Source of the DNA: Sporanaerobium hydrogeniformans | GTDB lineage: Bacteria > Bacillota > Clostridia > Lachnospirales > Cellulosilyticaceae | DNA: 64,000 nt | Direction of reading: 5' to 3' | Assembly: GCF_002735925.1 (NCBI RefSeq) | Contig: NZ_PEDL01000001.1 | Location: 310,001-374,000 of the forward strand | In this document: piece by piece, positions 4,113-28,998 of the stretch | How positions within the stretch are numbered: the first letter of the stretch is position 1 | How the letters are laid out: each line of letters starts with the position of its first letter | Position numbers and translations under genes: made by a program | The notes under the pieces: model-generated | Database searches by the model: none | Told to the model about the DNA's origin: nothing | The model's input: only the letters and a program-made list of their open reading frames with translations

Positions 4113-4185
4113 ATATGTCCGGAATGACGTAAAACTATCAAATCCATGTGATGATAACACGTAAAAATCGTAGGAGGATATAGGG

Positions 4186-4809
4186 ATGAAAAGAGAATTT
4201 CTAGAAGGATTATTAAAAGACATCAAAGAAGAGGACAGAAAAGCTATTGTTGACAAAATTATGGCTGAAAATGGGACAGATATCAATGCAGCTAAAGGAG
4301 ACACCAAGAAACTGGAGGATGAAGTAAAGACGTTAAAAGGTGAAAAGAAGAACCTTGAAGGTCAGCTTACCACAGCTAATGGAACAATCGAGGATCTAAA
4401 GAAAGGTAACCCTGATGTTGAAGCTTTGCAAACTAAAATTAAGGAGCATGAAGCGACTATTGCTAAACAGAAGCAAGAACATGAAGCGGAAGTTACCAAG
4501 CTTGCACGAGAAGCCATTAATACAGAGTTGGTCGGTAAGTACAAGGCTAAAAATGCGAAGGCTGTTATGGCTCTTATTGATGCGTTTGAAGCCAAAGACA
4601 ATGAGGATTACAAGACATTACTAGATGCTAAGCTTAAGGCTTTAAGTGAGGCAGATGATACTAAGTTTATGTTTGGTGAAGCCCAAATCAAACAAAACTA
4701 TAATCCAAATGGTGGTGGGAATCCTGGTAAAGAAGGTTTAGGGGCTAGCATGGCAGCTCAAAGAAATACAACACAGGCACCAGCGTTTGACCCTTGGGCA
4801 ATTAAATAA
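4186..4809 (+). CDS. Phage capsid scaffold protein (GP20 family)
   Basis: 207 residues matching the phage minor structural protein GP20 (scaffold) family in order and composition. The start is MKREFLEGLLKDIKEEDRKA. A long charged coiled coil spans about residues 45-110 (heptads rich in Lys, Glu and Leu), and the C-terminus is Gly/Asn-rich and ends near PAFDPWAIK. Scaffold proteins assemble inside the procapsid, guide capsid subunits and then leave or are cleaved; the C-terminal end usually contacts the capsid protein. AGGAGG at 4172-4177 sets the start. It lies directly before the decoration and capsid genes. Confidence 0.85.
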   Translation: MKREFLEGLLKDIKEEDRKAIVDKIMAENGTDINAAKGDTKKLEDEVKTLKGEKKNLEGQLTTANGTIEDLKKGNPDVEALQTKIKEHEATIAKQKQEHEAEVTKLAREAINTELVGKYKAKNAKAVMALIDAFEAKDNEDYKTLLDAKLKALSEADDTKFMFGEAQIKQNYNPNGGGNPGKEGLGASMAAQRNTTQAPAFDPWAIK

Positions 4810-18470: not shown

Positions 18471-18545
18471 TACAACATATTGTATTTGGTGTTTAATTTA
18501 CTACAACATATTGTAATTGACAAAGTGTGTTAAAATACTTAATAT
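18471..18545 (+). promoter_or_regulatory. Promoter with two identical 14-bp operator-like repeats
   Basis: TTGACA at 18517-18522 and TAATAT at 18540-18545 are 17 bp apart, a good sigma-A promoter for the gene at 18572. TACAACATATTGTA occurs twice, at 18471-18484 and 18502-18515. The copies are exactly 31 bp apart (about three helical turns), and the second abuts the -35 box. TACAA and TTGTA are inverted arms within each copy. Another inverted repeat, CTTATA-G-TATAAG, lies at 18438-18450. Together they suggest a repressor-controlled cargo promoter. Confidence 0.7.
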
Positions 18546-18571
18546 ACAGACAATTTGATGGGGTGTGTAGT

Positions 18572-19123
18572 ATGAATACTAAAGGACAAAAACCTAGTAA
18601 TAAGCTAGATAATGATACAAAACATAAAATATGCACAAATTGCATTCAATATCAAGTAAGTGATAAACCTAATAAAATTGCTAACTTAGGATTTCGAGTT
18701 ATATATACTTTCGTATCTTGGTTGTGGTTAGGTTATGGCGTAACTGATGGGAATGCTTTTTTTGTTTCACTTGGATTGTTTATAGTCCCTTTGTTAATTG
18801 ATTATTTATCATTTATTCCCCAAGAAAATACAAGAAAGTGGATGAAGGTTTTTGAAATATCAATTTGTATCGGAGTCTTAATTTTTGCATATATTGGTAT
18901 AAGTGGAAGTATAAATATTATAAATGATGGAAATAATCTTGTTATGATTCCTACAAGTAATCATTTAGCATTTAAAGGCACTAATTTTAAAATAAATATT
19001 AGTATAGTATACTATCTTTTACTTATATTTGTTTTATGTACTGGAATTGATTGGATAGCAACTCCTAGAACATGTGAAAATAAGTATAGGGAATCTTTGA
19101 AGCCATCAGTAGAAAGGGGATGA
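18572..19123 (+). CDS. Integral membrane protein with N-terminal Cys pair
   Basis: 183 residues from ATG 18572; earlier in-frame starts lie inside the promoter. A soluble N-terminus of about 45 residues contains CTNC and is followed by about four membrane segments (FVSWLWLGYGVTD region, FFVSLGLFIVPLLIDYLSF, ISICIGVLIFAYIGISGSI and ISIVYYLLLIFVLC). No family is recognised. It is transcribed from its own repressible-looking promoter behind the lysis terminator. That is the pattern of a prophage cargo (moron) gene, possibly for superinfection exclusion or an envelope change; the function is not known. Confidence 0.75.
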   Translation: MNTKGQKPSNKLDNDTKHKICTNCIQYQVSDKPNKIANLGFRVIYTFVSWLWLGYGVTDGNAFFVSLGLFIVPLLIDYLSFIPQENTRKWMKVFEISICIGVLIFAYIGISGSINIINDGNNLVMIPTSNHLAFKGTNFKINISIVYYLLLIFVLCTGIDWIATPRTCENKYRESLKPSVERG

Positions 19124-19127
19124 TAGT

Positions 19128-19508
19128 ATGACAGGTATTAATCTCTTTATATTAATCGCAGTTTTATTTTTATCAATCATCATAGGAACAGCAATAAGAT
19201 TATACATCGTAGGGGTAAAAAACATACTAATTTTTTCTATTTACATTCCTGTATTATTATGTGCTTTTACTGTAAATTTTATAACTCAAATATTAAAAGA
19301 GAATAGAACATTATCATTGTTTGAGAAGATTGTTGTAGGATATAAGATATTATTTTTTATAATATCACAAACACCTATATTAATTGGATTAGGTTGCACA
19401 GCTGTAATGGATGCACAAGAAAAGTATAAAAAGAAACCTAAAGATCAATACAGAAGTTCTAAAACTAGTTATAGAGATAAATTTGATAACTTATGTAGGC
19501 TTGCTTAA
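19128..19508 (+). CDS. Small membrane protein
   Basis: 126 residues with three likely membrane segments (LFILIAVLFLSIIIGTAI, ILIFSIYIPVLLCAFTVNFI, YKILFFIISQTPILIGLGC) and a basic cytoplasmic C-terminal tail (KYKKKPKDQYRSS). It lies four bases after the previous gene and is probably cotranscribed, so the two may act together. GGGGATG at 19117-19123 is its ribosome site. No family is recognised. It ends before a terminator. Confidence 0.75.
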   Translation: MTGINLFILIAVLFLSIIIGTAIRLYIVGVKNILIFSIYIPVLLCAFTVNFITQILKENRTLSLFEKIVVGYKILFFIISQTPILIGLGCTAVMDAQEKYKKKPKDQYRSSKTSYRDKFDNLCRLA

Positions 19509-19548
19509 TTTTAAGAATAATACTGAGATAAAGAATAGTTTTAGAAGT

Positions 19549-19572
19549 ACCAGGTGCTGAGCCTGGTCTTTT
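19549..19572 (+). terminator. Terminator, CCAGG-type (first of three)
   Basis: ACCAGG pairs with CCTGGT around TGCTGAG, followed by CTTTT. The same hairpin text recurs twice near 20716-20793. Confidence 0.7.
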
Positions 19573-19667
19573 ATTATGGGTAAAACTTTATATGGAATAT
19601 TTTTTTATGATATTAGTATACTATAATTAAGGTACCAGTTACTTATAGCAAGAAAGGTGGCTGGGTT

Positions 19668-19775
19668 GTGTATATGCTAAAGGCATTATTTATAGCTTTT
19701 GTAGTAGCTGTAATAAACGAAAGTGTAAAATATATGTTTATAGTATTAAAACAATTATTAACTAAGAACAACTAG
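19668..19775 (+). CDS. 33-35 residue hydrophobic peptide, candidate type I toxin
   Basis: GTG at 19668 (or ATG at 19674) opens a frame of 35 (or 33) codons with one hydrophobic segment (ALFIAFVVAVI), a second amphipathic half (YMFIVLKQLL) and a polar end (TKNN). AAAGGTGG at 19653-19660 fits the GTG start. TATAAT at 19622-19627 is a possible -10 box. GGTACCAG in the presumed leader (19631) can pair with CTGGTACC downstream (19801), and the latter also forms a 14-bp hairpin. Size, charge and bracketed pairing resemble prophage type I toxins such as TxpA or BsrG. No antisense promoter was confirmed. Confidence 0.5.
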   Translation: MYMLKALFIAFVVAVINESVKYMFIVLKQLLTKNN

Positions 19776-19799
19776 CTTTAATAATAATTAGTATGCTGG

Positions 19800-19836
19800 G
19801 CTGGTACCTACAATTCTATGAGTTGTGGGTACCAGC
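19800..19836 (+). other. 14-bp stem-loop downstream of the hydrophobic peptide
   Basis: GCTGGTACCTACAA pairs with TTGTGGGTACCAGC (one T-G pair) around a nine-base loop. It lacks a T run, so it is not a simple terminator. Its first arm is also complementary to AGGTACCAG at 19630-19638. Confidence 0.6.
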
Positions 19837-19915
19837 TTATAATTAAAATATAACAAAAGGATATTTATGCTGGAGCGTTTTTCGTTATTTTTTAATTTAT
19901 AAAAGAATAGTTTTG

Positions 19916-19945
19916 AGAGGTAGGGAAGAAACCCTACCTCTTTTT
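19916..19945 (+). terminator. Strong intrinsic terminator
   Basis: AGAGGTAGGG pairs perfectly with CCCTACCTCT around AAGAAA and is followed by a T run. It would end a short transcript of about 310 bases starting near 19633. Confidence 0.85.
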
Positions 19946-19946
19946 A

Positions 19947-19976
19947 TTGTAAGAATATACTAAAATATGCTAAAAT
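19947..19976 (+). promoter_or_regulatory. Probable promoter for the stalk-domain protein
   Basis: TTGTAA at 19947-19952 and TAAAAT at 19971-19976 are 18 bp apart, directly behind the terminator and before the AAGGAGG of the next gene. A TATAAT at 19988 is an alternative -10 box. Confidence 0.45.
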
Positions 19977-20007
19977 TTATATAGTTTATAATTTAAGGAG
20001 GATTAAT

Positions 20008-20700
20008 ATGAAGAAGATTTTAGGATTTTTTGGGGTACTATTATTAGGTGCTACTATAGGCGCTTCAGGAGTTAAAATTACAGCTGAGTTAAAAACACAA
20101 AAAGTTAGTTATAATGGGAATGTATCAGATCAAGAAGTAATAGCTTACAATGGTAGTACTTATGTTCCACTTAGAAAGTTTGGTGAATTAGTAAATATTC
20201 CCGTAAATTATAAAGACGGGGTGGTATATTTAGGAAATGATGGTAGCAAAAATATTTCATATTGGGGACAGGACATAAAAGATATGTCTAAACGAGTAAA
20301 TGCTATAGGTATGGATTTTGTTAATTATGCGTATAATGATAAATGGAATGTAGTTGAAGAAGATAATATAGGCAATAAATATACTAATTATTTGGTATTA
20401 GAAGCTAGTTATCATATGGAAGATGGGAATTATATAGAATTTCCTTTAAATAGTGAATATAAAGAGTTTAGGGCTAAATTAGGTATTCCTAAAGCTTCAC
20501 AAGATTCTATAGGTGAAAGACTTATAAAGATATATGTAGATGATAACTTAAGATATGAGCATACATTAATTAAAGGAGATATGCCTAAAGATATTGTTAT
20601 AGATATTTCAAAAGGTAATAAGTTACGAATAGAGGCATTTCATCTAGGTGAATACGAAAAATCTAGTATAGGGTTGTTTAATGGTGAATTTGTAAAGTAA
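20008..20700 (+). CDS. Secreted protein with copper-amine-oxidase-type stalk domain
   Basis: 230 residues. A signal or anchor segment (ILGFFGVLLLGATIGASGV) is followed at about 30-75 by the stalk domain signature (YNGSTYVPLRKFGELVNIPV and a short VVYLGN strand), a family very common on Clostridia surface proteins. The remaining 150 residues are soluble with beta strands (YLVLEASYHMED, IKIYVDDNLRYEHTL) that look like a jelly-roll, NPCBM-like carbohydrate-recognition or sensing module. That part is an inference. AAGGAGG precedes ATG 20008. It is a prophage cargo gene with its own promoter and double terminator. Confidence 0.75.
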   Translation: MKKILGFFGVLLLGATIGASGVKITAELKTQKVSYNGNVSDQEVIAYNGSTYVPLRKFGELVNIPVNYKDGVVYLGNDGSKNISYWGQDIKDMSKRVNAIGMDFVNYAYNDKWNVVEEDNIGNKYTNYLVLEASYHMEDGNYIEFPLNSEYKEFRAKLGIPKASQDSIGERLIKIYVDDNLRYEHTLIKGDMPKDIVIDISKGNKLRIEAFHLGEYEKSSIGLFNGEFVK

Positions 20701-20715
20701 TAATAGTTTTTGGTG

Positions 20716-20793
20716 GATCAGGTGCGGAACCTGGTCTTTTACTTTATAAAAATATCGTTTTAGATAGACCAGGTGCAGAGCTTGGTCTTTTTT
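20716..20793 (+). terminator. Tandem CCAGG-type terminators
   Basis: GATCAGG/CCTGGTC (20716-20736) with TTTT, and AGACCAGG/CTTGGTCT (20766-20788) with TTTTT, lie 30 bases apart. Both share the loop text TGCNGA with the terminator at 19549. Confidence 0.75.
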
Positions 20794-20869
20794 ATTGTAT
20801 AAATATAGTGAAATATGATACTATTATATAAAAACGCAATTAAGTACATGCTATTAATTAGGGGGGAAT

Positions 20870-21262
20870 ATGAAGAACGATATTGATATACAAATATCTC
20901 CAGTTACTGATGAAGAAATTTATAATGAATTAAACAAATCAAAAGGTATTATGCTTAAAATACTAATAGTTGTATTAAAGATAGGTGCATTATTTTTAAT
21001 ACCTATAATAGCTTTTTTTGCTTTTGTATTTCAGGTAACTGGAATGGTTGTGAAATGGATACTATTTTTTATCGGAGGACTATGTAGCTTAATTAGTGCT
21101 ATAGCTTTGCTTCAATATTTTGTTGATAAAGAGAATTTATTTATTATAATATACGGGTTTATGATAGGGTTTATCAGTCTCATATTAGCTGTGTTTATAG
21201 ATGCTATAGGAGAATTTTTATTAATGTTCTTAGGAAAGACAATAGCATTTTTACATTATTAA
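20870..21262 (+). CDS. Small multi-span membrane protein
   Basis: 130 residues. A 25-residue polar N-terminus is followed by about four hydrophobic segments (MLKILIVVLKIGALFLIPII, VKWILFFIGGLCSLISAIAL, LFIIIYGFMIGFISLILAVF, FLLMFLGKTIAFL). There is no charged motif that suggests an enzyme or transporter, and no family is recognised. AGGGGGG at 20860-20866 precedes the ATG. It probably belongs to the cargo set and could be in one transcript with the next small gene. Confidence 0.7.
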   Translation: MKNDIDIQISPVTDEEIYNELNKSKGIMLKILIVVLKIGALFLIPIIAFFAFVFQVTGMVVKWILFFIGGLCSLISAIALLQYFVDKENLFIIIYGFMIGFISLILAVFIDAIGEFLLMFLGKTIAFLHY

Positions 21263-21302
21263 AAATATCTTTTTATAAATAATGTCATTAGGGGATGATA
21301 TT

Positions 21303-21491
21303 ATGAAATACAAGAAAGAGAATGGGGTTAGAGTGTATTATACTAATGATTTATTATATAAGATAGTTCCTACTGTAAATGACTTTAGAATATATAGGCT
21401 TATTGAAGGTAAATATAAATTTATTACAGGTACGCTATTATTATTCGATGCAAAGCAAGTAGTTGCAGAAATGTCACCAGGAAGTAAATAG
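21303..21491 (+). CDS. Small soluble protein of unknown function
   Basis: 62 residues from ATG 21303, behind GGGGATG at 21291-21297; the in-frame upstream starts lack such a site. The protein is basic and beta-rich (NGVRVYYTNDLLYKIVPTV, KYKFITGTLLLFD) with a short helix at the end (AKQVVAEMSPGSK). It may be a small regulator or adaptor. No family is recognised. It ends 20 bases before a structured RNA candidate. Confidence 0.6.
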   Translation: MKYKKENGVRVYYTNDLLYKIVPTVNDFRIYRLIEGKYKFITGTLLLFDAKQVVAEMSPGSK

Positions 21492-21510
21492 CGAATGTAT
21501 TAAATACTAA

Positions 21511-21696
21511 AAACTGCACATACTACTAATAGGTGGTTGGCAGATCCAAAAGCAATCCTTTCTTCCGAGAAAGTTGCCTAGCCAATAAGATTGAGTTGTG
21601 CACCTAGGTAGACTAGAAGAGAATCTAATTAGCTAAGCAATAGTGCTATAACCGTAATAACTGCCAACGTGGGGCCATGTGCTCCACGTTTTTTAT
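21511..21696 (+). ncRNA. Candidate structured RNA ending in an intrinsic terminator
   Basis: Nested pairings are visible: TGCACA 21515-21520 with TGTGCA 21597-21602; TTGGC 21537-21541 with GCCAA 21581-21585; GCAA 21552-21555 with TTGC 21574-21577; and CTTTCT 21558-21563 with AGAAAG 21568-21573 closing a TCCG loop. A second option is GTTGGCAG (21536-21543) pairing perfectly with CTGCCAAC (21661-21668), which would invade the terminator stem AACGTGGGGC/GCTCCACGTT (21666-21690) that is followed by TTTTTT. No protein frame fits. It could be a prophage small RNA or a switch-like leader for the gene at 21785. No known RNA family is recognised. Confidence 0.6.
21666..21696 (+). terminator. Intrinsic terminator of the structured RNA
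   Basis: AACGTGGGGC pairs with GCTCCACGTT (one G-U) around CATGT and is followed by six T. Confidence 0.85.
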
Positions 21697-21784
21697 TTGT
21701 TCGAAAATTTTATTTAATATTAAATTGAGTTGATAATATGTCAGATAATTTATATAATTATAAAAAGATAGGGTGGTGCATAAT

Positions 21785-22633
21785 ATGATATCAAAGTTAA
21801 AAATAAGCTTTTATAAAAATCCTATGGGTTTTATTTTTACAGTAGTAGTTATAGTTTTTTTACTGATTTTAGGTATAGGAATAGTGATAGGTGATATAGA
21901 AGCTAGTGATTCTGGAGTTGAATCAGCAAGTAATGGCAAAATGAATATAGTACAAACTAATAATGAAGCTAATAGCAATTTACACTGTGATGTAAAAGAC
22001 TGCATATCAGTAGAGCTTATAGGTTCTGATGGGAAGCAACTCTATATAGATAAAGGTATTACGAAGGATAAACTAGCTTATGAAGAAGATATATATCTAT
22101 CTGTAGAAAATACAAGTCAAGATTGTAAGTTTGTAGGCAGTATATATATAGATGGCGCTGGTTTTATGGGACAGTATGGAGGGATTGAGATAATGCCTGG
22201 GGCAGCACAACAATTAAAATACACAATAAAAAATAGCAATACTAAGTATCAAATAGATGGTCAAATGGTACAGGTGCTAAATAATGATATCCTAAGTAAA
22301 TATAAGATATTAGCAAGTAAAATAAAGACTGGGATTGTTGATGAGGATAAATACATTAGAGTAGGTATAGAAATACCTGATGACTTTGATGTTAATAATC
22401 CTATAGATGTACTTAGCGATTTTCTTGATATCTATACAAAATCATATGGTATAGAGGAAATTATCATTTATATTTATGAAAAAGGCTATGCTATGAAAAA
22501 CACTAGTGATATGTATAAGAATGCACTATATGCCATTACAGCATATGTAGGAGAAGAAGGATATAGTTATGATGTAGAAGATTTAAAAAATGACAAAATC
22601 TTGTTTAGTGGAGAATTAAAAATCCAAGAGTAA
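21785..22633 (+). CDS. Membrane-anchored exported protein
   Basis: 282 residues from ATG 21785, ten bases after GGGTGG. One membrane anchor lies at about 14-36 (FIFTVVVIVFLLILGIGIVI), followed by an extracellular domain. The first half is beta-rich (ISVELIGSDGKQLYID, DIYLSVENTSQDCKFVGSIY), like proteins that resemble Ig-type or TcaA-like surface domains. The second half alternates helices and strands. There is no catalytic motif and no lipobox. It may protect the lysogen at the surface, but this is inference. It converges on the XRE gene with a shared terminator. Confidence 0.65.
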   Translation: MISKLKISFYKNPMGFIFTVVVIVFLLILGIGIVIGDIEASDSGVESASNGKMNIVQTNNEANSNLHCDVKDCISVELIGSDGKQLYIDKGITKDKLAYEEDIYLSVENTSQDCKFVGSIYIDGAGFMGQYGGIEIMPGAAQQLKYTIKNSNTKYQIDGQMVQVLNNDILSKYKILASKIKTGIVDEDKYIRVGIEIPDDFDVNNPIDVLSDFLDIYTKSYGIEEIIIYIYEKGYAMKNTSDMYKNALYAITAYVGEEGYSYDVEDLKNDKILFSGELKIQE

Positions 22634-22970: not shown

Positions 22971-23792
22971 ATGGAGAATATGTGTATAAATAACGGATAC
23001 TTTGCGACAAAGGTTAGGACAGATACCAAAGAATTTATGTTTGAGAGTAAGGTCACTAAAGCGCTAGATAAATATGAATCTAATTTAAAGATAGCAGGAG
23101 AACAGTATAAAGTAGGTTCAGGAAATCATGATTTAGAATTAGATAAGACTACTAGTTTTACTCAAAAGGCTTGTGTATCTTATGCTATTCAAAAAGCAAC
23201 TACTGATAAGGAAGTAAGAGTAATGAGTGCATTACCTATTAATACTTATAGTAATATTGAAGCAAGGCGAAATTATAAGGAGTGGTTACTAAGTTTGGAT
23301 AGAATAAAAGATTGTGAAGTATATCCAGAGGGAGCTGCTGCTACTTTAAGTGATTTGTCTTGGTATAATAATAAGTTAGTGTGCCTAATTGATGTAGGGG
23401 GACTTACTATTAACGCTATGATATTTGATAATGGCAAGTTGGTACCAGGTACTGCTTTTGGTTGTCAACTCGGAGCAATCATCTTAGAAAACCGTATCAG
23501 AATGGCATTACAGCAGACAGGACTTGTAAATATACCAGACTATCAGATTAAATATCTTATTAAGAATGGTGACAAGGTTACTGATAAGGTACTAGAAAAT
23601 TATATAGAGGAACTTAATTTAGAGTTCAGGAAGATGAATTATCCTACGCAACTTGATTTTAGATTTACAGGTGGAGGAGCTCTTAAATTCAGAGAGTTGT
23701 TTAAGAATTACTTTAAAGCATTTATATCCGATTACGCAGTTTGGGAGAATGTGAGGGGTCTTTATTTGCTAAGTCAGGTGGTGTGGAAATGA
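22971..23792 (+). CDS. ParM-like plasmid-segregation actin
   Basis: 273 residues of the actin/Hsp70 superfamily. Visible motifs are NNGYFATKV at the N-terminus (phosphate-1 loop), LIDVGGLTINAMIFDNGK at about 140-158 (phosphate-2 loop) and FTGGGALKF at about 227-235 (adenosine loop). Actins of this type polymerise to push plasmid or phage-plasmid copies apart, with a small DNA-binding partner encoded just downstream, as here. The first loop reads NNG where DNG or DIG is usual, so the catalytic Asp may be replaced by Asn. The length is slightly short. AAAGGGTG precedes ATG 22971. Confidence 0.85.
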   Translation: MENMCINNGYFATKVRTDTKEFMFESKVTKALDKYESNLKIAGEQYKVGSGNHDLELDKTTSFTQKACVSYAIQKATTDKEVRVMSALPINTYSNIEARRNYKEWLLSLDRIKDCEVYPEGAAATLSDLSWYNNKLVCLIDVGGLTINAMIFDNGKLVPGTAFGCQLGAIILENRIRMALQQTGLVNIPDYQIKYLIKNGDKVTDKVLENYIEELNLEFRKMNYPTQLDFRFTGGGALKFRELFKNYFKAFISDYAVWENVRGLYLLSQVVWK

Positions 23793-24025
23793 GAATAGAG
23801 GTTTATATTCCTGATCGTGAGATAGAAGTAATACAAAAGATACTAGAACTTAAGGAAAATAAAAAACTAAGTAGCTACATTGTGGATTTACTCAAGAGAG
23901 AGGAAGAGAATATAACGGAAGAAAAAGTAATAGAACTTATTAAAAAGTACACTCCAGAACATAAAAACACCGCCATGAGGGGCGGTTTAGAAGATAGTGT
24001 TCAATCAATTTTAAAAGGGTTATAG
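23789..24025 (+). CDS. Small ParR-like DNA-binding partner
   Basis: 78 residues from ATG 23789, overlapping the ParM-like stop by four bases (ATGA). The N-terminus is a beta strand followed by two helices (RIEVYIPDREIEVIQKIL, LSSYIVDLLKREEEN), which fits a ribbon-helix-helix fold such as ParR or CopG-like partition partners. The C-terminal part is charged and disordered. ParM gene partners are usually of this size and position. The family call is from fold pattern and context, not from a specific motif. It probably binds a centromere-like site or the palindromes nearby. Confidence 0.7.
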   Translation: MRIEVYIPDREIEVIQKILELKENKKLSSYIVDLLKREEENITEEKVIELIKKYTPEHKNTAMRGGLEDSVQSILKGL

Positions 24026-24136
24026 ATATGGCATAGACGTGAAGATGACTTGCTCGCTGGCGCTCACAACGTTCATACTTCACTATATGATTTCGTGTCA
24101 GCTAAATATTCCTATTTTGCTTGTTTTATGAAAATT

Positions 24137-24214
24137 TTATCTTAACATACAAGTCAAAACGATACATGTTGCATCTAAAACTAAAAATGTGCAATAAGCC
24201 GTTGTAAATATCAT
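24137..24214 (-). CDS. 25-residue hydrophobic Cys peptide (candidate)
   Basis: The minus strand from ATG 24214 reads MIFTTAYCTFLVLDATCIVL and ends TCMLR before TAA. GAGGTGAT lies 5-6 bases upstream, a fair ribosome site. The peptide has one hydrophobic segment with three Cys. It sits antiparallel in the gap between the ParR-like gene and the membrane-protein operon. It may be a small membrane or toxin peptide, or chance. The rest of the gap 24026-24291 holds no other gene. Confidence 0.35.
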   Translation of the reverse strand: MIFTTAYCTFLVLDATCIVLTCMLR

Positions 24215-24251
24215 TTGTATCACCTCGTAATTTTTTATTTATCTAAGTATC

Positions 24252-24265
24252 TCCGAATATACGGA
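24252..24265. promoter_or_regulatory. Imperfect palindrome before the ATPase operon
   Basis: TCCG-AATATA-CGGA has inverted 4-bp arms and shares the core GAATATACG with the palindrome at 22921, suggesting control by the same regulator. Confidence 0.4.
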
Positions 24266-24291
24266 AATTATACATGGAAGGGGAAATAATT

Positions 24292-24672
24292 TTGAAAATC
24301 TATTATATAAGACCTGTTGGGTCTACATTATACGAAAGGGCTCTAACCGAAGTTATGACAAAAGGAAATAAAAAAGCCATAAGATTAATAACTATAGGAT
24401 TCACACTTATGATGTGTTGTCAAAGCTTATTAGCAGCTGATGAAAACCCAGTAAAGAAACTTGGGTATGATGGTATAGGATTAGTTCAGCTAATCATAAC
24501 ATTTATAGCTATCTTTATGGCTCTATTTGAAATAGGTAAAGCAATGCTTGAAGGAGATCCAAAGCGTATACCTAGTATAGTAGCTAAGTATGGTATAGGC
24601 GTTATATGTGTTTATGCAGTTCCTACAGTATACTTTTATATAAAAAACGCATTCGCTGGATGGGAGGGGTAA
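24292..24672 (+). CDS. Small membrane protein, VirB2/pilin-like
   Basis: 126 residues from TTG 24292, preceded by GGAAGGGGA; the ATG at 24274 has no ribosome site. A charged N-terminus of about 30 residues leads to a hydrophobic signal-like segment ending in LLAADE (possible cleavage). Two membrane segments follow (IGLVQLIITFIAIFMALFEI and YGIGVICVYAVPTVYFYI) with a small charged loop between. That two-helix plan after a cleaved leader is the plan of VirB2-type conjugative pilins. Its position in an operon with a VirB4-like ATPase supports this, but sequence alone does not prove it. Confidence 0.6.
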   Translation: MKIYYIRPVGSTLYERALTEVMTKGNKKAIRLITIGFTLMMCCQSLLAADENPVKKLGYDGIGLVQLIITFIAIFMALFEIGKAMLEGDPKRIPSIVAKYGIGVICVYAVPTVYFYIKNAFAGWEG

Positions 24673-24674
24673 TT

Positions 24675-24986
24675 ATGCAAATTTGCTATATACCAGCAGT
24701 AACTACACCTACTCTGTGTGCTATAGATTTAGGGATAAAAGAAACTATTGAGAGTGCTATGCAAGGTGTTATAGATAACATGATAGTGAAGCCTTTTCAA
24801 AATTGGTGCCATGGCATATGGATGTGGACTGTTGATACTAGTCTACCAGCTTGTACTACGGTATCATTAGTAGCTCTCATGCTCTACATGGTAGGAGTAA
24901 AAAGTGCAAGGAAGTGGATAATCATTCCCATTATAGTGTACGTGTTTATACAGATTGCTAATGCTATGTTAGGAGGTGCTTATTGA
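24675..24986 (+). CDS. Small membrane protein in ATPase operon
   Basis: 103 residues from ATG 24675, directly after the previous stop and behind GGGAGGGG. A first half with Cys residues (MQICYIPAVTTPTLCAIDLG) and a Trp-rich amphipathic stretch (FQNWCHGIWMWTVD) is followed by two hydrophobic segments (TVSLVALMLYMVGV, WIIIPIIVYVFIQIANAML). No family is recognised. It could be the VirB3/VirB6-like membrane partner of the ATPase. It overlaps the next start. Confidence 0.6.
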   Translation: MQICYIPAVTTPTLCAIDLGIKETIESAMQGVIDNMIVKPFQNWCHGIWMWTVDTSLPACTTVSLVALMLYMVGVKSARKWIIIPIIVYVFIQIANAMLGGAY

Positions 24987-27316
24987 TGGAGCTTACCCTA
25001 ACTAAAACTATGACAATTAGTGATTATTTTAAGATGATTAAGCCTGAATATGTGTACCTTAAACTTATACCAGATACATCAATTCGTAACTATAACAGCT
25101 CAGCTTTAGCTAAGATGATAGCAAATATGTACCAAGGGATTAACAAGCGTATCTACAAACAAGAAAAAACATGGTGTTTTAAATCTCCTATGCGATGTAG
25201 CTATTTTATTGATATACAAAAGAATGATGTTAGCTTTTATTTTATTGTGCCTGGACAGTATGAATCTATTGCTAGGGAGAAAATATCTAGCGTATGGCCT
25301 AGGGTTACTATAGAGAAAACTGATAAAGTGAAAGAGTTTGAAGGGGATAAGGTTAGTTATAACCTTGGGTACAAGAAAGAGGATGCCCTTAGTCTAGATA
25401 CGGATGCTAGGGGCAACACTCTTCTTAGCAGTATATTAAATATAGTTGATGTGATAGAAGAAGAGGATAGGGTGGGAATATTTTATAATTTTGTACCAAT
25501 TAATCAGAGATATTGGAATGCTGACTATAAGCATACACTCGACAAATGGAAGCAATACAAGCCTCTTGACCGAAACAAAGTATCAGTAGGATACTTGCTT
25601 AAATATTCAGCTATATGTCTGTTGTGGCTTATTCAAAGCGTTTTAGATGGTATATGCGATGCTTTTGGGGAAAACAAAAATGAGGTTAGTACACTTACAA
25701 ATCTCACGGATGCACTTAATAGAACTCGAATAGAATTATCTGAGCAGACAAAACGAAAGAAAAATGAAATAATACTAGACACTCAGATAGCTATTTTAGG
25801 TAGTGGTCCTAATCTATCTAGGAGTAAAAGCAATGTGATTTCTGTTTGTCAAGGGTTTAATAGCATAGAAGGGGATAATGAATTGATTTATAAGGAAAAC
25901 AAAAAATTCGAAGCTTTAAATGATAGTTGTGTGTATAGATCAGTGGAAAGGAATAAGATGAGTGTTTCAGAGTGTCAAAATTTACTACAGTTACCTGGAA
26001 GAGAATTATTAGAAAAACATAAGATAGAGCATATTAACACACTAGAGGTATTGGTGCCAGAAGAACTACAAAAAGGGGTTATGTGTATAGGAGAAAGCAC
26101 TTATAAGGGAAATAGTATTAAGGCATATCTTTCTATGGATAGAAACTTTAAATACCTAACAACTTGCGTAATAGGGCCTACCAGAGCAGGAAAAACTACT
26201 CTTATATCAAACATGGGGGTAGATTCAGCGAGGGCAAGTGAAATAAATGTATTTTTTGATTGGTGTGGTAACTGTGAGCTAACAGAAGAAGTTAAGGTAG
26301 CATTACAAAAGCAAGGTATTAAATGTCTGGTAATTGATTGCTCAGACCCAAAGGACTTGCAAGGGCTAGGTTACAATGAATTATATTCTAACAGCAATGA
26401 TGTATTTGATAGATATCGAAGTTCAAAAGCTCAATCAAGCCAACTCATGACACTTATTAATTCTGTTCAAGGTGATGAGACTGAACTTCGAGCGAGAATG
26501 GAGAGATACCTAGAGGCGGCAGCTGTTACAGTATTTATCTCTAATGGTCCTATCAGGGATGTATTCGGGATACTTCAAAGGCACCAATTACGTGCTGAGT
26601 ATATTAATAAAATACCTACTAATCAGCAAGTGAATTGCCAAGAGTATATAGAGGCTCTTAATGAGTTAGATGAGGTTGATAAGAAAAGCAGTGAGGTAAT
26701 AGGTACAAAGATAAGTGCTATTCAAGGGATACTTAATAGAGCAAATAAGCTAAAGCAAAATACCTATGTGGAAATGATGTTAAAAAAAGATTGCTCTAAG
26801 AATTTTAACCTAACAGAAGAGATAATGAAATCACAAGCTATATTTATAAAAATGCCAGAGACCATGTTTTCTACAGAAATAGAAAAGGATATCTATGCGA
26901 CATACTGGCTCACTAAGTTATGGGCAGCACTTCAACAAAGGAAGTGGCTGGTTAAGGAGCTGGATAATCTAATAAAGGTTAATATGTACTTTGATGAGCT
27001 ATACCAAACCCCAAACTGTCAAGATTTCCTCAGAAGTAAATTAAGTCAGATTGCTAAATTTGGAGCTAAACCAATCATTAGTTGTCACTACTTGGGCCAA
27101 ATTCCAATTATACGAGGAGAGCTAAAAGCTGCTAATACATCATACATGTTGATTGCAGGATGTGATAAAATGAATTATAATGAATTAAAAGAGGAGCTAG
27201 ATCCGTATAATGTAGATGATCTATTACACATGAAAAGGTACCATAGCTTAAACCTTATAAAAACGAGTGATGGATATGCGCGGTTTATTACTAAACTACC
27301 TAGACCTATATCATAG
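24986..27316 (+). CDS. Large VirB4/TraC-like ATPase
   Basis: 776 residues from ATG 24986, behind AGGAGG; a TTG one codon earlier is possible. An N-terminal domain of about 370 residues contains one hydrophobic stretch (LLKYSAICLLWLIQSVL at about 205). A P-loop ATPase domain follows with Walker A GPTRAGKTTL near residue 396, a Walker B-like MYFDELYQ near 670 and a late motif of FGAKPIISCHYLG type. This order is that of T4SS or conjugation ATPases (VirB4/TraC/TraG group) and of phage-type HerA/FtsK pumps. It is the only large gene of the operon. No relaxase or coupling protein is next to it. Function is inferred as DNA or pilin transport. Confidence 0.75.
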   Translation: MELTLTKTMTISDYFKMIKPEYVYLKLIPDTSIRNYNSSALAKMIANMYQGINKRIYKQEKTWCFKSPMRCSYFIDIQKNDVSFYFIVPGQYESIAREKISSVWPRVTIEKTDKVKEFEGDKVSYNLGYKKEDALSLDTDARGNTLLSSILNIVDVIEEEDRVGIFYNFVPINQRYWNADYKHTLDKWKQYKPLDRNKVSVGYLLKYSAICLLWLIQSVLDGICDAFGENKNEVSTLTNLTDALNRTRIELSEQTKRKKNEIILDTQIAILGSGPNLSRSKSNVISVCQGFNSIEGDNELIYKENKKFEALNDSCVYRSVERNKMSVSECQNLLQLPGRELLEKHKIEHINTLEVLVPEELQKGVMCIGESTYKGNSIKAYLSMDRNFKYLTTCVIGPTRAGKTTLISNMGVDSARASEINVFFDWCGNCELTEEVKVALQKQGIKCLVIDCSDPKDLQGLGYNELYSNSNDVFDRYRSSKAQSSQLMTLINSVQGDETELRARMERYLEAAAVTVFISNGPIRDVFGILQRHQLRAEYINKIPTNQQVNCQEYIEALNELDEVDKKSSEVIGTKISAIQGILNRANKLKQNTYVEMMLKKDCSKNFNLTEEIMKSQAIFIKMPETMFSTEIEKDIYATYWLTKLWAALQQRKWLVKELDNLIKVNMYFDELYQTPNCQDFLRSKLSQIAKFGAKPIISCHYLGQIPIIRGELKAANTSYMLIAGCDKMNYNELKEELDPYNVDDLLHMKRYHSLNLIKTSDGYARFITKLPRPIS

Positions 27317-27567: not shown

Positions 27568-28998
27568 ATGGAAACAATTTTAAAATGGGAAAAATTATTA
27601 TGTACAGAAAGACAAAGAATTTCAAGTTCTAATGTCACAAGTCATAGAAATGAGTTTGATAAAGATTATGATAGGATTATAGCATCTTCATCGGTTAGAA
27701 GATTGCAGGATAAGGCACAGGTATTTCCTTTACAAGAAAATGATTTTACACGAACACGGTTAACTCATTCATTAGAAGCCTCTGCTATTGCAAGGTCATT
27801 TGGATTAGCAATAGGAGAAAAATTAGTGGAAAAAGGAGAATTTAGTGAAGTGAAGCAAATATACCAGCTATCATCTTTATTGGCTGTAGCTGGATTAATT
27901 CATGATTTAGGAAATCCACCATTTGGGCATTATGGGGAAGATATTATTAGAAAATGGTTTACAAAGTGGTTCCATAGTGTGGAGTTTAATGAATTTAATG
28001 AAGAATACAGAAGAAAGAATAAAAAAGATTCGATAACAGAACAAGAAAAAGAAGATTTTATTAGATTTGAGGGGAATGCACAGACACTAAGGATAATATC
28101 TAAACTACAATTTATGAATGATCAATATGGAGTTAATTTTACATATGCTACAATGGCAACAATTATGAAATATCCTTGGAAATCTACAGATTCACGAGCT
28201 AGAGTGAAAAATAAATTTGGTTTTTTTGTGGCAGAACATAATGTAGCGAATAAGATATTTGAAAAGACTGGTATAGATAAAGGCCGTCATGCAGCAACAT
28301 ATTTACTTGAAGCATCTGATGATATTGCTTATTTATTAGCAGATGTAGAAGATGGAGTGAAAAAAGGAATTATAGATTGGGATTTAACATATAAGAATAT
28401 AAAGGAGGCTCTAAAAAATGAAGAACAACTTAAGGAGATCTTCAAAGAACTTGATGAAAAAAATAAAAAGGCAGAAGAAAATATGGTGCCAGGGAGCTCT
28501 TTGATTTCAATGCAAAATTTTAAAGTAGCGATGCAAGGAATTTTATTTGTGGATTGTCGCAATACATTTATGGAATATTATGATGATATAATGAATTGTA
28601 AATTTGAAGGTGACCTATTAGGTAAGGGAAAAGTTAGTAACTTGGTGAAGCAACTTCAAGAGGTTACTAGGCAAACCTGCTTTATAGATAGAGAAGTATT
28701 AACATTAGAGTTAGTAGGAGAGAATGTAATTGAAGGGTTACTAGATAGGTTTGTAGCAGCTATTGCATTTTCAGAAAAAGAACCTAGTGCAAAAGTTAAA
28801 GAGGGTAAACTGTATAAATTGATTTCTGATAATTTTATTTATATATGCAAATTAAATGAAGAAGGCAAACCAGAAAAGACATTTGAAAACTTTACGCTAT
28901 ATGATAAACTAATTTTAATTACGGACTTTATTACAGGAATGACGGATTCGTATGCGGTTAATTTATATAAGGAGCTAATAGGAATAAAATTACCTTAA
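27568..28998 (+). CDS. dgt: dGTP triphosphohydrolase (HD domain)
   Basis: 476 residues of the dGTPase family (dGTP to deoxyguanosine plus triphosphate). Typical elements are RRLQDKAQVFPLQENDFTRT and TRLTHSLEASA with His67, then the HD pair at His112-Asp113 within LIHDLGNPPFGHYGE, and EASDDIAYLLADVEDG near 248-263 that supplies the last metal ligand. AGGGGG precedes ATG 27568. It is followed after 12 bases by a nucleotidyltransferase gene. In the host, dGTPases balance nucleotide pools; in defence islands they deplete dGTP and stop phage replication, which suits this setting beside a prophage. The defence role is inference. Confidence 0.92.
   Translation: METILKWEKLLCTERQRISSSNVTSHRNEFDKDYDRIIASSSVRRLQDKAQVFPLQENDFTRTRLTHSLEASAIARSFGLAIGEKLVEKGEFSEVKQIYQLSSLLAVAGLIHDLGNPPFGHYGEDIIRKWFTKWFHSVEFNEFNEEYRRKNKKDSITEQEKEDFIRFEGNAQTLRIISKLQFMNDQYGVNFTYATMATIMKYPWKSTDSRARVKNKFGFFVAEHNVANKIFEKTGIDKGRHAATYLLEASDDIAYLLADVEDGVKKGIIDWDLTYKNIKEALKNEEQLKEIFKELDEKNKKAEENMVPGSSLISMQNFKVAMQGILFVDCRNTFMEYYDDIMNCKFEGDLLGKGKVSNLVKQLQEVTRQTCFIDREVLTLELVGENVIEGLLDRFVAAIAFSEKEPSAKVKEGKLYKLISDNFIYICKLNEEGKPEKTFENFTLYDKLILITDFITGMTDSYAVNLYKELIGIKLP

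Follow-up and report, generated by a model that had tools for sequence, protein, structure and literature searches.

Phages are known to encode RNAs that interfere with the small RNAs of their hosts, one example being AgvB (PMC4104026; reviewed in PMC12197685), which mimics an mRNA target of GcvB (PMC4104026). AgvB and AsxR of EHEC act as anti-sRNAs, or sponges, and the element described here resembles them in being a predicted prophage small RNA related to an RNA of the core genome. Unlike AgvB, however, the RNA on this phage is a version of the host RNA itself (86% identity) and not a mimic of an mRNA target. Another structured phage RNA, the C4 antisense RNA of P1 and P7 (RF01695; PMC12197685), has loops that pair to a ribosome-binding region; our element is longer than C4 and has its own terminator. 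6S RNA (RF00013) is similar in length, occurs in Bacillota, and can be present in more than one copy, but the element has no match to the RF00013 model. Transcription-attenuating riboswitches likewise have competing helices beside a terminator, whereas here the helix leaves the terminator working, the genes downstream of the two copies differ, and promoter-like sites intervene. To our knowledge, prophage RNAs have been little characterized in Clostridia.

The element lies in a 64,000-nt stretch of Sporanaerobium hydrogeniformans DNA (contig NZ_PEDL01000001.1, positions 310,001 to 374,000), referred to below as the window. A preliminary description made from the letters alone had proposed that it is a compactly folded, possibly new RNA with competing helices and a terminator. 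The coordinates of its features are collected in Table 1.

Table 1. Features of the element and its immediate surroundings in the window
Feature	Position	Strand	Remarks
Small gene ahead of the block (69-codon ORF)	21282..21491	+	ATG at 21303 after AGGGG is the likelier start
5' edge of conserved unit, AATGTATTAAAT	21494..21505	+	Same in both copies; unrelated just upstream
RNA body plus terminator	21511..21696	+	Second copy at G000:C11:191952-192157, 86% identity
Predicted local extension of P0, CUGC 21514-21517 with GCAG 21540-21543	21514..21543	+	Alifold consensus; pair probability ~0.5
Predicted hairpin P0, ACUACU / GGUGGU, 4-nt loop	21522..21537	+	Invariant in both copies; pair probability ~0.7
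Predicted long-range helix, 5' arm (GUUGGCAG)	21536..21543	+	Inverted repeat; energy about equal to that of the local form
Predicted hairpin P2, GCAA..CUUUCU-UCCG-AGAAAG UUGC	21552..21577	+	Pair probability 0.9
Predicted arm P3, UAGC.AAU.AGAUU / AAUCU.AUU.GCUA	21579..21635	+	Consensus fold; apical loop of ~29 nt, variable
CACCUAG block inside the variable P3 loop	21601..21607	+	Unchanged between the copies in the alignment
Predicted long-range helix, 3' arm (CUGCCAAC)	21661..21668	+	Shares 3 nt with the start of the terminator stem
Intrinsic terminator plus U-tract, 3' edge of unit	21666..21696	+	10-bp stem 21666-21690, then T-run
Promoter-like TTGATA-17-TATAAT	21730..21758	+	11/12 matches; chance ~0.005 for region size and composition
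Orphan membrane/surface protein gene	21785..22633	+	Outside the RNA unit

The element has a twin in the chromosome

A search of the genome for sequences similar to the element revealed a second copy of ~205 nt (E 3.3e-62) located 139.5 kb upstream of the copy in the window. When the two were aligned together with their flanks, identity jumped at AATGTATTAAAT and dropped after the TTTTTTATT U-tract of the terminator, while the flanks themselves were unrelated. Judged by this alignment, a sequence unit is certainly conserved between the copies, and, because its 3' edge is the terminator U-tract, the unit ends where a transcript would end. The AATGTATTAAAT segment at the other edge may represent either a −10-like promoter element or a piece of a 3' untranslated region (UTR). 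Other parts of the genome gave antisense matches of 14 to 22 nt only, all at chance level.

The two copies are surrounded by unrelated genes. The window copy lies just beyond prophage tail, holin, and endolysin genes, with primase/helicase and terminase genes further to the left. The chromosomal copy follows a 73-amino-acid ORF and precedes dut amid housekeeping genes, which, to judge from their translations, include lysine biosynthesis, pyruvate-formate-lyase-like, and rarA-like genes in addition to dut. The occurrence of the copies among unrelated genes, one set prophage and the other chromosomal, implies that the element is probably a free-standing regulatory RNA and not an on/off switch for a neighbor. 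In makeup it resembles a stand-alone bacterial sRNA, being a noncoding unit with an intrinsic terminator at its end that is conserved regardless of the neighboring genes. One of the readings offered in the preliminary description was a stand-alone prophage regulatory RNA; the first half of this reading gains support from the exact coincidence of the end of the conserved unit with a terminator, but the copy in the chromosome means that the RNA is not specific to the prophage.

We also agree that no reading frame fits the element. Its longest frame, of 14 codons from a TTG, has no spaced Shine-Dalgarno sequence; in copy 2, three of the four changed codons alter the amino acid, and the frame is broken at indels. 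On the strength of these nonsynonymous changes and frame breaks, we rejected a coding role.

At each locus, no more than ~2 nt separate the start of the conserved block from the stop codon of a small ORF (in the window, the block begins 2 nt after the stop codon at 21489-21491). The small gene in the window belongs to no Pfam or PHROG family, and the chromosomal 73-amino-acid ORF has no family match. The presence of a small ORF directly before each copy could be taken to mean that a small gene and an RNA moved between phage and chromosome together as a mobile cassette, of an addiction- or integron-like type, for example, and the neighborhood of dut does differ in relatives, where this gene follows nrdD-nrdG-like genes (names again from translations). 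Such a cassette appears improbable, however, given that the two small ORFs are unrelated, that neither terminal inverted repeats nor target duplications were found at the block edges, and that the genome holds just the two copies, with partial ones absent. In addition, the 8-bp repeat is reversed in order relative to an attC core site (GTT first), and what closes the unit is an RNA terminator.

The surrounding prophage region has further features of its own. Window positions 4116-4172 (+) match the GP20-b cis-regulatory RNA of Rfam (RF03003, 40.2 bits, above the cutoff); the site is in the region of the phage head genes, immediately ahead of the ORF at 4186-4809. Two near-identical terminator hairpins, GGATCAGGTGCGGAACCTGGTCT and AGACCAGGTGCAGAGCTTGGTCT, stand in tandem at 20715-20788 (+), following an NPCBM-domain ORF (20008-20700). 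Past the endolysin gene, positions 18527-22633 contain a run of orphan genes for small membrane or secreted proteins, most of them without a Pfam family, and this is likely a lysogenic-conversion (moron) region. After this cargo region, positions 22971-27316 encode a partition protein of the actin-like ParM type and a 777-amino-acid protein matching PHROG 5156 (unknown function), and beside them is the gene for an HD-domain protein resembling dGTPase (27568-28998). Genes of the ParM type point to an origin from a plasmid-like element or a phage-plasmid; a search of IMG/VR for related prophages found no relatives of the ParM-like and ATPase-like neighbor proteins.

The element belongs to no named family and appears to be restricted to one lineage

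Comparison of positions 21494-21696 with Rfam 15 gave no match at the gathering cutoffs and, at relaxed settings, only chance-level matches on the minus strand (E 2.5 and 5.9), in agreement with the earlier failure to assign the element to a named family. No tRNA or tmRNA was found in it. We considered 6S RNA and found no support for it, the sole RF00013 match in the genome, which served as a control, being located elsewhere (L010, C11:61246-61437, 63.1 bits). The C4 antisense RNA (RF01695) likewise found no support: the genome gave no match, a weak negative given that the control genomes were silent too, and cmscan of the window agreed.

Homologs were sought by DNA searches and with a covariance model derived from the window and chromosomal sequences. 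These gave no third copy in the 23 other genomes of the family or in sampled genomes of the order (392), the class (391), and the phylum (398), where stricter filters can lose weak matches, and the model run with its filters off gave no match in the dut neighborhoods of 14 relatives. Weak model matches in relatives (L012 and L013, E 0.05 to 0.06 per genome) were read individually and judged to be due to chance, because ~1.4 such matches would be expected over 24 genomes and the L013 site lacks most of the helices. A blastn search of 50,697 phage and 72,556 plasmid records found no homolog. Exact-pattern scans of IMG/VR with five patterns returned nothing or isolated short matches, and we discounted the four 34-nt matches to a sixth pattern, which came without the rest of the model, as well as a pattern match in a GTDB contig (L016, the same place as L006) that consisted of 20 nt inside an apparent coding region. 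As far as the searched collections show, the RNA is thus limited to this lineage, and the preliminary suggestion that it may be new holds in the sense of an undescribed, lineage-restricted RNA.

The second copy, and not the fold energy, sets the element apart from chance

The consensus fold of the two sequences consists of P0, P2, the P3 arm, and the terminator. In P2, one A-U pair is replaced by G-U in copy 2, and P3 has a pair probability of only 0.33 in the window copy. The hairpin previously described as UNCG-like does have a UCCG tetraloop (21558-21573), but the UNCG character is not conserved, the loop being CCCA in copy 2. Folded at its full 186 nt, the window copy was moderately stable, with a z score of −1.97 relative to shuffled sequences; without the terminator, the score was −0.60, with 61 of 200 shuffles folding equally well or better, and that of copy 2 was −0.56. 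That the fold stands out was not confirmed, and, since without the terminator it is indistinguishable from that of shuffled sequences, fold energy alone could not justify the finding. It is the second copy that raises the element above chance.

The bodies of the two copies differ by 22 substitutions, 21 of them located away from the consensus helices (Fisher p 3e-5, a value that is partly circular because the helices were picked from the same two sequences) and most of them in the apical loop of P3. When the substitutions were re-placed at random and the sequences refolded, an equally good consensus was obtained in 0/300 and 14/300 cases for the body and in 0 to 1 of 300 with the terminator included. 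When the pattern was slid along so that its clustering was kept, 30/314 and 51/314 null alignments folded as well, a level at which the avoidance of helices is no longer significant, and the depletion of substitutions was not significant with helices taken from one sequence alone (p 0.17 and 0.11). Covariation was sought in two sequences only, and no pair had changed on both sides. We regard the particular fold predicted for the conserved unit as plausible but unproven.

The terminator core is predicted to survive the competing helix

The terminator claimed in the preliminary description is genuine, and the surrounding 2.1 kb contain four terminator-like sites against 0.3 expected. It had further been proposed that a perfect 8-bp helix between 21536-21543 and 21661-21668 would intrude on the terminator stem. 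The perfect repeat exists (by our estimate, ~0.26 such repeats would be expected in a sequence of this length), and copy 2, with CUGCCAGC as its 3' arm, keeps the 8-bp helix with one A-U replaced by G-U. The intrusion is slight, however, affecting at most 3 outer pairs of the 10: with the long-range helix in place, the 7-bp core of the terminator stays at −11.4 of −14.8 kcal/mol. Because the long-range form costs no more than these outer pairs and the core remains, we rejected the helix on energetic grounds as an antiterminator in the usual sense; the two structures are not mutually exclusive, as terminator and antiterminator would be in a riboswitch or attenuator. The local and long-range folds are 0.7 to 0.8 kcal/mol apart in both copies, and in the window copy the local pairing is predicted to form about half of the time and the long-range pairing about a fifth. 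Two CUGC segments (21514-21517 and 21661-21664) compete for the GCAG at 21540-21543, the pairing of the latter segment being extendable to 8 bp, and in the predicted folds this, not terminator versus helix, is the real competition.

These results bear on the suggestion that the element is a switch, namely a ligand- or protein-controlled attenuator of the surface-protein gene at 21785 in which the 8-bp helix would serve as antiterminator. Two nearly isoenergetic folds do make use of a common GGCAG segment, and positions 21596-21604 form a 9-nt complement to the ribosome-binding region at 21775-21783. Yet this P3-loop complement ranks only ~11th among 105 gene starts, which is ordinary, and the complementarity between the P3 loop and the available gene starts was unexceptional. 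Along with the stable terminator core that the long-range helix leaves behind, a strong promoter-like site (Table 1) follows ~35 nt beyond the terminator, ahead of the gene. Nor are the downstream genes functionally consistent: copy 2 precedes the unrelated dut, and a weak promoter-like site lies between its terminator and that gene, whereas the gene at 21785 encodes an orphan that has no Pfam or PHROG family and no relative in the genomes of the family or in phage records. We consider control of the 21785 gene very improbable. The promoter-like site after each terminator and the unrelated downstream genes argue for an RNA that is stand-alone or released from a 3' UTR and against a leader switch.

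Transcription of the element

For the window copy, neither a sigma-70-type −35 element at the right spacing from the 5' edge nor a convincing, conserved promoter of its own upstream of the block was found. Upstream of the block, the best promoter-like sequence (TTGATA-16-TATAAT, 21123-21150) is located ahead of the small ORF. This arrangement, together with the fact that in both loci the block spans the distance from ~2 nt past the stop codon to the terminator, is consistent with a 3'-UTR/terminator module. Such a module would be a structured trailer by which the mRNA of the small upstream gene is ended and stabilized; it would have undergone host-phage recombination and would not act in trans. 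We regard such a trailer as possible, if somewhat unlikely: ~155 nt are conserved ahead of the terminator, far beyond the needs of termination, the ORFs upstream of the two copies are unrelated in sequence, and near the block of copy 2 there is a candidate promoter (TTGTTA-18-TACAAT, L008 9913-9942).

Discussion

We conclude that this RNA element is real and undescribed, that it is restricted to the lineage, and that host and prophage each have one copy of it. As an overall explanation, we propose that it is a noncoding RNA with its own terminator that most likely acts in trans, an explanation whose chances we put at about even. The RNA would be ~185 to 205 nt long, with the prophage copy in the late cargo region. 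It might be transcribed together with the small upstream gene and then processed or, alternatively, arise from a promoter inside the end of that gene, and it would terminate at 21690-21696 whatever the upstream fold. Action in trans would be through base pairing, for which the CACCUAG of the P3 loop is the best seed candidate, or, equally well, through protein binding. This candidate seed could have anti-Shine-Dalgarno character. The phage copy may supplement, mimic, or compete with the host RNA, and a near copy of a host RNA on a phage would fit either dosage control or competition.

We infer the discrete transcript, the action in trans, and the relationship of the two copies from the arrangement of the loci, and our best reading is a lineage-restricted, trans-acting or protein-binding RNA carried by both host and prophage. 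A bolder version of this proposal, which we think unlikely as a whole, is that the element represents a new class of structured regulatory RNA in this clostridial lineage, maintained by the host as well as by its prophage, that the prophage copy retunes the regulon of the host RNA, and that CUGC/GCAG strand exchange serves as a conformational switch. For judging whether a predicted RNA is real, the paralog was more informative than the fold energy. If the proposal is true, phage mimicry or dosage control would here be exerted by a near-identical RNA instead of an anti-sRNA. A single genome with near-identical forms of an RNA in its chromosome and in a prophage offers a clean, testable case of a phage-borne regulatory RNA of host type.
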